This document shows, one piece after another, positions 22,322 to 56,745 of a stretch of 64,000 nucleotides of DNA. The notes under the pieces were generated by a model. It saw only the letters and a list, made by a program, of their open reading frames with translations. It did not search any database and had not been told where the DNA came from. Source of the stretch: an uncultured Woeseiaceae bacterium (GTDB lineage Bacteria > Pseudomonadota > Gammaproteobacteria > Steroidobacterales > Woeseiaceae). The position numbers and the translations under genes are program-made. How positions within the stretch are numbered: the first letter of the stretch is position 1; every line of letters begins with the position of its first letter. The DNA lies in assembly GCA_947259985.1 (NCBI GenBank), contig CAMYOJ010000012.1, positions 24,693 through 88,692 on the forward strand, given 5' to 3'.

Positions 22322-23410
22322 TTAAAGTGTTTTTGGCCGCTTGACCGGCTCGCCGGCGGGGCTCAGAACGCCGTGTTCCACGTGGAACACGGCGGCCCCT
22401 TCAGGTATCGATAAAGCGGCCCGCTCCAGGCTCGTGGCAACGACCTGGCAGCCCAGCATCGCGACCGCCTCCATGAGGCGATCGAGCGAATCCGCGTCGA
22501 GCTCCGCCGCCGGATCGTCGAGAAGCAACAGCAGTGGCCGCTCGAGTGCCGTCTGCGCCGTCTCGGCCGCCGCGAGGATCATCGCGCTCGCCAGCAGCTT
22601 CTGCTGCCCCCGGGACACCAGCTTCCGGGCCTGGCGCTCGTCATAGCGAATCTTGAGATCGGCACGGTGGGGCCCGTACTGCGTAGCGCCCAGTTGCAGG
22701 TCTCGCTCCAGCCCCTCTGTCAGCAGGGCTTCGAGCGCCAGCTCCTTTTTCCACCCCTGCTGATAATCAAACCCGAGATCGGTACCCAGCAGGCCCTGGC
22801 CGTAACCCTCCAGGCTGCCCTTCGCCACCTCCAGGGAACGACGCCGCGACGCGTCCAGCGCCATGCTCAGCTCCACGAACTCGGCGTTCCAGCTATTTAT
22901 CGCGGCGGGCCGGGAATTTCCCCTGAGCGCGGCATTTCTTTGTTTGAGGACTCGCCGGAAACGACGCCATGCCGTCAGGTGTTCTGGTTCCACGTGGAAC
23001 GCGACCCAGTCCAGGAAGCGGCGGCGCTGTTCAGGCCCGCCGGCGACGAGGTTATGAACTTCCGGATCAATCACCTGCAACGGCAGGGCCTCTGCGAGGG
23101 CCGCGGCACCGCCGCCCTCCCCATCTACCCGTATTTCGAGGCCGGCCCGGCTGTTGCGCACCCCTATTCTCCGATGCCGACCATCATTATCCACCTGCCC
23201 GAACAGCACGAACTCCTGCGCGCCGTGCTGTATGAGGTTCGCTGTACTCGCCCCACGAAACGACTTCCCCCGTCCCAGGTACGCCAATGCCTCCAGGAGA
23301 CTCGTCTTCCCGGAGGCGTTGGCCCCAAAAATAAGGTTGAAGTCCGGCGCCAGCGCGAGCTCGATATTCTCCAGGCAGCGGAAATGGCTCGCCTTGAATG
23401 TACGAATCAT
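22322..23410 (-). CDS. recF: DNA replication/repair protein RecF
   Basis: FRCLENIELALAPDFNLIFGANASGKTSLLEALAYLGRGKSFRG; between dnaN and gyrB. Confidence 0.96.
   Translation of the reverse strand: MIRTFKASHFRCLENIELALAPDFNLIFGANASGKTSLLEALAYLGRGKSFRGASTANLIQHGAQEFVLFGQVDNDGRHRRIGVRNSRAGLEIRVDGEGGGAAALAEALPLQVIDPEVHNLVAGGPEQRRRFLDWVAFHVEPEHLTAWRRFRRVLKQRNAALRGNSRPAAINSWNAEFVELSMALDASRRRSLEVAKGSLEGYGQGLLGTDLGFDYQQGWKKELALEALLTEGLERDLQLGATQYGPHRADLKIRYDERQARKLVSRGQQKLLASAMILAAAETAQTALERPLLLLLDDPAAELDADSLDRLMEAVAMLGCQVVATSLERAALSIPEGAAVFHVEHGVLSPAGEPVKRPKTL
22369..22394. promoter_or_regulatory. parS-like ParB binding site 1 (inside recF)
   Basis: CGCCGTGTTCCACGTGGAACACGGCG, perfect 26-bp palindrome containing TGTTCCACGTGGAACA. 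Confidence 0.88.
22987..23000. promoter_or_regulatory. parS-like ParB binding site 2 (inside recF)
   Basis: GTTCCACGTGGAAC perfect 14-bp palindrome. Confidence 0.8.
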
Positions 23411-24536: not shown

Positions 24537-24735
24537 CTGTTAATAAATATTGGAAATCTATATTTTATTATTATTATTAAGCGACAAAAGTCCTGTGTAT
24601 AACTTTTTAATCTCTTTATAATTCAATAAGTTATGCCTAACAAATCGACCTAACACTTCTTGCATGTCCGGTCTGCGAGCTGTGAGCAGCCTGTGGATAA
24701 AATACGTGCAGTTAGTTTTCCACCAGTTATCCACA
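24537..24735. other. candidate oriC (dnaN-dnaA intergenic)
   Basis: DnaA-box-type 9-mers TGTGTATAA (24594-24602), TGTGGATAA (24692-24700), TTATCCACA (24727-24735); AT-rich tract with five TTA repeats (24565-24579). Confidence 0.75.
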
Positions 24736-26171: not shown

Positions 26172-26180
26172 TTATCCACA
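26172..26180. promoter_or_regulatory. DnaA box upstream of dnaA
   Basis: TTATCCACA exact match in the dnaA-rpmH divergent region. Confidence 0.7.
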
Positions 26181-54432: not shown

Positions 54433-55053
54433 GTGCGGGCAGCGGACATCGAAGTGGCAATCGGCCGATTGCCCCAGGTTTTTCCCGGTGATGCGGCCGG
54501 AAAAATGGCGGCGCTCCTGAACGAGCTCGAGAAATGGAACCGGCGCGTCAACCTGACCGCCGTTCGCGACCCGCAAGAGATGGTGACGGCTCATATTCTC
54601 GACAGCCTGGTCGCCCGGCCGTTTCTAGAGGGCGAAAGCATCCTGGACGTTGGCACGGGCCCCGGTTTCCCCGGGCTGCCACTCGCGATCGCCGAGCCGG
54701 AGCGACGGTTCACCTTGCTCGACAGCAACAACAAGAAGATTATGTTCGTCCAGCATGCGGCGGGTTTGCTGGGCCTCGATAACGTCGAGGCGGTCAAAGG
54801 ACGAGGCGAGGACTATGCACCCGGCCAGCGCTTTGATACCGTGATTGCACGAGCGCTGGCCGCACTGCGGCGACTCGTGGAAATCGCCGGGCACCACGTG
54901 GGAGAGGACGGAGTGTTCGTAGCGCTGAAAGGGCGCTATCCGGCTGAAGAACTAGAAGAACTAACGGCTCCATGGAGCCATGAAGTTGTGCAACTGGTGG
55001 TGCCGGGGCTCGATGCGGGTTCGCGGCATGCAGTGCTGTTGCGAAGAGTCTGA
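54433..55053 (+). CDS. rsmG: 16S rRNA (guanine(527)-N(7))-methyltransferase
   Basis: WNRRVNLTAVRDPQEMVTAHILDSL, ILDVGTGPGFPGLPLAIAEPERRFTLLDSNNKK. Confidence 0.96.
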   Translation: MRAADIEVAIGRLPQVFPGDAAGKMAALLNELEKWNRRVNLTAVRDPQEMVTAHILDSLVARPFLEGESILDVGTGPGFPGLPLAIAEPERRFTLLDSNNKKIMFVQHAAGLLGLDNVEAVKGRGEDYAPGQRFDTVIARALAALRRLVEIAGHHVGEDGVFVALKGRYPAEELEELTAPWSHEVVQLVVPGLDAGSRHAVLLRRV

Positions 55054-55842
55054 ATGATGACACGAATACTTGCAGTAGCGAACCAGAAAGGCGGGGTGGG
55101 CAAGACGACCACCTGCGTCAACCTGGCCGCGTCGCTCGCCGCTACGCAGCGGCGCGTGCTGCTTGTGGACATGGATCCCCAGGGCAACGCGACCATGGGC
55201 TGTGGCATTAACAAGATGGAGCTCGAAAATTCCACCTGCGATGTGTTGCTGGGTGATGCCACGGCGGCTGACACCATCGTGTCGCCACCCGAGGGCGGGT
55301 TCGCAGTCTTGCCCGGCAACGCGGACCTGACGCTGGCCGAGGTCAACCTGCTGCAGGAAATCGGGCGCGAGATGAAACTCAAGAAAGCGCTGGCGCCGGT
55401 CACGGGGCTGTACGATTTCATCCTGATCGACTGTCCGCCGTCGATAAACATGCTGACCGTCAATGCCCTGACGGCAGCCGATGGCGTACTCATACCCATG
55501 CAGTGCGAGTATTACGCACTCGAAGGGCTGAGCGCTCTTCTGAACACCATCGAGCAGGTGCGCGACTCGGTGAACCCGGAGCTCAATGTGTACGGCATCC
55601 TGCGTACGATGTTCGACCCGCGCGTGAACCTGTCGAACGAGGTATCCATGCAGCTCATCGAGCATTTCGATCGCAAGGTGTTTCGCACGGTCGTACCGCG
55701 AAACATCCGCCTGGCCGAGGCGCCGAGTTTCGGCCGTCCGGTGCTGTTGCATGATCGCTCGTCCCGTGGCGCAATTGCGTACCTTGCGCTGGCTGGTGAA
55801 GTGCTCAGGCGTGAAGATGCGCGCGTCGCACAGGCTGTTTAG
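55054..55842 (+). CDS. parA: chromosome partitioning ATPase ParA/Soj
   Basis: NQKGGVGKTTTCVNLAASLA, LLVDMDPQGNATMGCG. Confidence 0.96.
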   Translation: MMTRILAVANQKGGVGKTTTCVNLAASLAATQRRVLLVDMDPQGNATMGCGINKMELENSTCDVLLGDATAADTIVSPPEGGFAVLPGNADLTLAEVNLLQEIGREMKLKKALAPVTGLYDFILIDCPPSINMLTVNALTAADGVLIPMQCEYYALEGLSALLNTIEQVRDSVNPELNVYGILRTMFDPRVNLSNEVSMQLIEHFDRKVFRTVVPRNIRLAEAPSFGRPVLLHDRSSRGAIAYLALAGEVLRREDARVAQAV

Positions 55843-55851
55843 GAAAATCTG

Positions 55852-56745
55852 ATGACACCCAAGAAAAGGCTCGGCCGCGGGCTTGATGCATTACTGAGCA
55901 AGCCTGCATCCAGACCACAATCGGTAAGCGATGATGTCATCGCCGGCGGCGATACGCTCAAAAACATACCGGTCGAATTGCTGCAGCGTGGGCAGTACCA
56001 GCCGCGCGTCGACATGCGCCAGGATTCGCTCGAGGACCTCGCGAACTCGATCAAGGTCCAGGGCGTCGTGCAGCCTATTGTTGCGCGGCCCATTGGCAAC
56101 AAGGACGGCACGCAGCGCTATGAGATTGTCGCGGGCGAAAGGCGCTGGCGCGCCGCGCAGCTGGCCGGACTCGCCGAGATTCCGGCGGTGGTGCGCGACG
56201 TCCCCGATGAGGGCGCGATCGCAATGGCTCTTATCGAGAATATCCAGCGCGAGGACCTCAACCCGCTCGAAGAGGCGCGCGCCCTCGATCGGCTGATCCG
56301 CGAATTCGAGCTGACACACGCCGAGGCCGCAAAGGCGGTCGGTCGCTCCAGGGCTGCGGTCAGCAACCTGCTACGCCTGCAGGAATTGTCCGACAAGGTG
56401 AAGCCGTTACTCGAAGATCGCCAGCTGGAAATGGGACACGCACGTGCGCTGCTCGCGATCACTAACGCGACGCAACAGTTCGATGCAGCGCGCCAGGTGG
56501 TCCGCAAGGGCATGTCAGTGCGCGAAACGGAGAAACTCGTGCGCCGTATGCTGGACAGCGGCGGCAGCAAGCCGGTGAAGAAACCGGCCGTTGTCGATGC
56601 CGATATCCGGCGCCTGGAAATCGAGGTCTCGGAAAAGCTGGGCGCCAAAGTGCACGTCGATCACACGAAGAAGGGCGCCGGCAAGCTCGTGATCAGCTAC
56701 AACAACCTCGACGAGCTCGACGGCATCCTCAAGCACATCAATTAA
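55852..56745 (+). CDS. parB: chromosome partitioning protein ParB/Spo0J
   Basis: LGRGLDALLSK; GERRWRAAQLAGLAEIPAVVRD; ALIENIQREDLNPLEEA; central HTH. Confidence 0.96.
   Translation: MTPKKRLGRGLDALLSKPASRPQSVSDDVIAGGDTLKNIPVELLQRGQYQPRVDMRQDSLEDLANSIKVQGVVQPIVARPIGNKDGTQRYEIVAGERRWRAAQLAGLAEIPAVVRDVPDEGAIAMALIENIQREDLNPLEEARALDRLIREFELTHAEAAKAVGRSRAAVSNLLRLQELSDKVKPLLEDRQLEMGHARALLAITNATQQFDAARQVVRKGMSVRETEKLVRRMLDSGGSKPVKKPAVVDADIRRLEIEVSEKLGAKVHVDHTKKGAGKLVISYNNLDELDGILKHIN

Follow-up and report, generated by a model that had tools for sequence, protein, structure and literature searches.

Probable parS centromere sites within the recF coding sequence of a Woeseiaceae bacterium and of its relatives in the class

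In Pseudomonas aeruginosa the sites parS1 and parS2 are situated within recF (PMC5521831, PMC3909081), so parS in this gene is already known in kind. The locus described here is a further member and comes from a 64,000-nucleotide stretch of DNA of an uncultured Woeseiaceae bacterium (the window). At the level of genes it resembles P. aeruginosa in having two canonical parS sites inside recF near oriC and a chromosomal ParAB pair beside gidB (PMC5521831, PMC3909081). However, P. aeruginosa has about ten parS sites, of which four lie near oriC (two within recF and two in intergenic DNA further along), whereas in the host of the window two were found, both in recF. The distance of parAB also differs, being about 7 kb from oriC in P. 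aeruginosa (PMC3909081) and 33 kb from the recF sites in the window.

Xanthomonas citri is like the window in carrying parS (TGTTCCACGTGGAACG) about 3 kb from the origin, but at least one of its sites was reported at the 3' end of dnaN and no recF pair was reported (PMC3937727). The window ParB has counterparts of R173 and G201, the specificity residues of Caulobacter crescentus ParB; in contrast, recF genes sampled outside the class in the same phylum are without parS at these positions. No description of class-wide orthology of the sites, of codon locking or of relocation to the dnaN-gyrB gap was found in the literature searched, whose scope excludes Livny 2007 and most subscription papers, and this is absence of evidence only.

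The two palindromes and their neighbourhood

The recF gene of the window (22322-23410, minus strand, Pfam RecF/RecN/SMC N) is flanked by dnaN (24536-23433, minus) on one side and gyrB (22248-19810, minus) on the other. As proposed in the initial annotation, it contains two parS-like palindromes, both GTTCCACGTGGAAC and separated by 612 bp: site A at 22987-23000 (RecF codons F138-H139-V140-E141) and site B at 22375-22388 (F342-H343-V344-E345). The codons read GCG TTC CAC GTG GAA CCA and GTG TTC CAC GTG GAA CAC, in agreement with the FHVE peptide assigned to both. Against the 16-bp parS palindrome TGTTNCACGTGNAACA, site B matches at 16/16 positions (16-mer TGTTCCACGTGGAACA at 22374-22389), while site A has a perfect 14-bp core and differs at both outer bases (16-mer context GGTTCCACGTGGAACG at 22986-23001). 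The longer 26-bp perfect palindrome described around site B, CGCCGTGTTCCACGTGGAACACGGCG, is present at 22369-22394, but its extension beyond 16 bp is not conserved. All 26 bp are found in 2/33 same-genus recF genes; as a rule the palindrome there is perfect over 14-16 bp or is broken at the Y/R positions. Only the inner 14-16 bp are kept in relatives, and the 26-bp palindrome was rejected as a distinct element.

A search of the 64-kb window with the 16-mer and up to three mismatches detected sites A and B only. In shuffled windows the chance mean was 0.18, and two matches were reached in 1/100 shuffles. The host genome, a draft of 2.5 Mb in 60 contigs, was also searched by pattern, a check proposed along with the initial annotation: matches with zero to two mismatches are again sites A and B only, both in recF. 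At up to three mismatches the whole draft yielded 15 matches, and the reversed-pattern control 15 as well; the 3-mismatch matches are therefore chance. Because the draft is only 82% complete, further parS sites may exist elsewhere in the host genome.

The A+T-rich gap between dnaN and dnaA (24537-24735) is the candidate for oriC and contains two perfect DnaA boxes (24692-24700 and 24727-24735). Cumulative GC skew, a coarse measure here, is lowest at about 24-28 kb of the window. Together, the boxes and the skew minimum make an origin near this gap plausible. Both recF sites are 1.6-2.3 kb from the candidate gap, the distance estimated at the outset. A third perfect DnaA box is found upstream of dnaA (26172-26180), and oriC could be on either side of that gene.

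The par genes are located on the plus strand beyond rsmG/gidB (54433-55053), which precedes parA (55054-55842, AAA_31). The chromosomal parB (55852-56745) encodes ParB_N, HTH_ParB and ParB_C, that is, an N-terminal domain, an HTH and a dimerisation domain, and a GERRWR motif. ParA and ParB are 32.7 kb from the recF sites, which bears out the early figure of about 33 kb. The GRSR and MGHAR positions of the window ParB correspond to R173 and G201, an equivalence read by eye against PMC7383237 with Caulobacter ParB itself outside the alignment, and both recognition residues are present.

Conservation of position and of codons

The relatives with names are mainly metagenome-assembled genomes of Woeseiaceae. 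The sequence GTTYCACGTGRAAC is present in 55/60 relatives searched, almost always in exactly two copies. In 128/170 recF genes with aligned codons both sites are found at homologous RecF codons (138-141 and 342-345) and in the same phase. They are retained in all same-genus recF genes (33/33, spacing 603-612 bp) and in 17/22 from other families of the order. Among class representatives (one genome per family) 79/114 possess both sites, 15 site A only, 9 site B only and 11 none, so that 103/114 have at least one. Sites within the examined recF genes but away from the two positions number only six. Most class genomes contain exactly two parS sites, with a reversed-pattern control of about zero, and ParB is present in 134/140 class genomes. 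Six genomes (G107, G190, G118, G101, G308 and G340) have neither canonical recF site despite a full-length ParB; recF is therefore not an obligatory place for parS.

Some genomes deviate from this pattern. One genome of the class (G158) carries twelve canonical parS sites where nearly all others carry two. In two recF genes (L198 and L200, from G044 and G057) a third parS is found inside the gene, at RecF position 78 and in a different reading phase. One draft with 9% contamination (G009; L017, L047, L051) contains two different recF genes and is probably a mixed bin.

Codon restriction was assessed in 97 RecF columns dominated by one residue, where the frequency of the most used codon was set against the codon usage of each gene itself; since the genomes are phylogenetically non-independent, the resulting z serves as a ranking and not as a probability. 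The six most restricted columns are V140, V344, H139, H343, E141 and E345; their z values fall from 12.8 to 8.2. The next in the ranking is serine column 118 (z 8.2), where the value is probably inflated by the two serine codon families. At site A, GTG was observed in 95/97 cases against 36 expected, CAC in 100/104 against 48, and GAA in 85/88 against 47. The flanks are restricted too: at both sites most genes have a G at the end of the codon before and a C at the start of the codon after, although the residues vary. At site A the counts are 104/114 for the G and 104/114 for the C, the residue of the following codon being mainly P, H, Q or R. At the E codon a charge reversal from E to K is tolerated (GAA to AAA, 23 cases at site A), while the synonymous GAG is nearly absent. 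Within the genus, 123 columns are nearly invariant in residue and five codons are fully invariant, all of them within the two sites.

These counts indicate that recF DNA at the sites is conserved beyond the need of the protein. The pattern that had been named as evidence against the initial proposal, palindromes lost from the DNA while the protein is kept, was looked for and the opposite was found.

Loci without recF, without ParB or with altered sites

Several lineages act as natural experiments. In four genomes without a convincing recF, dnaN adjoins gyrB. Three of these (L218, L219 and L220) carry a parS pair in the dnaN-gyrB gap, and the fourth (G111, L222) a single parS there. In several genomes missing one of the recF sites, a parS is found 4-32 bp past the recF stop codon.

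The par genes are absent from Enterobacteriaceae and Pasteurellaceae (PMC3909081). Both sites are absent from the recF loci of four genomes without chromosomal-type ParB: that of E. coli (L217), which reads TTT CAC AAC GAA and TTT ACC GTG GAA at the two positions, and three others (L259, L260 and L262; genomes G257, G349 and G281), where ParB is either missing or matched only weakly. The losses in ParB-less genomes probably go back to no more than one or two separate events. Beyond the class, a site was found in 0/36 RecF genes sampled elsewhere in the same phylum, and mostly different residues occupy both positions.

The order of G103 (G103, G198-G223) contains no canonical parS in 27/27 genomes and none in its recF genes. 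It was rejected as a ParB-less control because a divergent ParB (about 35% identity) was found. In the two ParB proteins aligned, the R173-equivalent of the recognition helix is replaced (GRDN), and the order was re-read as a probable case of altered ParB specificity. Genomes of the order of G088 (G088, G224-G248; 2-6.6 Mb) have no canonical parS. In those searched, no convincing ParB or RecF was found (there was one weak ParB-like match), and with both proteins absent the order was unusable as a recF control.

A few recF genes carry altered sites. Both sites are GTTTCATATGAAAC in G142 (recF L173) and GTTCCACATGGAAC in G080 (recF L102). In G062 (recF L151) the two sites are reverse complements of each other, GTTTCACATGAAAC at A and GTTTCATGTGAAAC at B, and their peptides differ (FHMK and FHVK). 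Site A of G087 (recF L188) is GTTCTACGTAGAAC. The cores in these four genes changed in concert (CATATG, CACATG, CACATG/CATGTG) or, in one, to TACGTA, with symmetry largely kept. To judge from the sequences, they look like paired changes that preserve a ParB site. ParB changes were detected in three variant-core lineages, at the equivalents of G170 (G142), K171 (G080) and S172 (G087), while the ParB alignment showed no obvious change in G062 and G064. Their small number makes these changes a hint rather than a case of covariation. In a RecF tree built without the site columns the variant-core lineages did not form one clade, and supports were weak.

Centromere and coding information in one sequence

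The best explanation is that the two palindromes serve a ParABS system as its chromosomal centromere (parS) sites, and that the same 14 bp also encode part of RecF (probability about 0.94). As part of this explanation, parS function would fix the codons G-TTY-CAC-GTG-RAA-C and partly also the residues, FHV[EK] with H, P, Q or R next. That centromere and coding information overlap in recF, as originally suggested, is well supported by the sequence data, because the DNA is conserved beyond protein need and the sites are kept in the dnaN-gyrB gap where recF is missing. The location of parAB, 33 kb away and farther than in P. aeruginosa, counts against this explanation, although ParB acts in trans.

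That the palindromes are instead a by-product of the conserved RecF peptide, with a palindromic codon choice by chance, is highly improbable. FHVE is indeed conserved at both places in most RecF proteins of the class, but the six site codons lead all 97 testable columns in codon restriction and the neighbouring residues vary mostly among those with palindrome-keeping codons. Moreover, FHVE is missing from nearly all RecF proteins outside the class, sites occur without recF in the dnaN-gyrB gap, and changed cores kept their symmetry by paired changes, as at both sites of L173. Peptide-driven conservation was rejected on the codon statistics and the gap cases.

That the sites bind another protein in place of ParB, such as one regulating the dnaA-dnaN-recF-gyrB operon, is very unlikely. 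The sites do sit in a key operon, and an excess of P. aeruginosa ParB reduces expression of this region (PMC5521831). However, the sequence is that of canonical parS, nearly all class genomes possess ParB, and the sites are absent where ParB is absent or without its specificity residue. As for chance matches in G+C-rich coding sequence, short palindromes do arise randomly, but the shuffles, the reversed-pattern controls and the class-wide conservation of position already refute this explanation, and its likelihood is negligible.

If the sites are parS, the role of ParB in the host can be sketched by analogy with parS1 and parS2 of P. aeruginosa and with general ParB biochemistry. ParB dimers would load at the two recF sites, 1.6-2.3 kb from oriC, and would then slide and spread across the oriC-gyrB region. 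ParA would segregate the ParB complex, resulting in early separation of the origins, while the same 14 bp at each site would continue to code for part of RecF.

A broader reading is tentative and stands at somewhat less than even odds. The recF pair may be the ancestral centromere of the whole class, locked in the gene from the origin of the class onwards and dictating RecF residues. A few lineages would have acquired a new centromere specificity through matched base changes in both sites (CACGTG to CACATG/CATGTG to CATATG) and accompanying changes in the DNA-contacting helix of ParB, and recF would thus record the co-evolution of ParB and parS.

The recF sites offer a clean case of one DNA stretch serving as both centromere and protein code across very long evolutionary time, with built-in controls in the lineages without ParB, with altered ParB and without recF. 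They make it possible to test whether the centromere constrains RecF, what favours a pair of sites, and in what way the specificity of ParB changes while its sites are confined to a gene.
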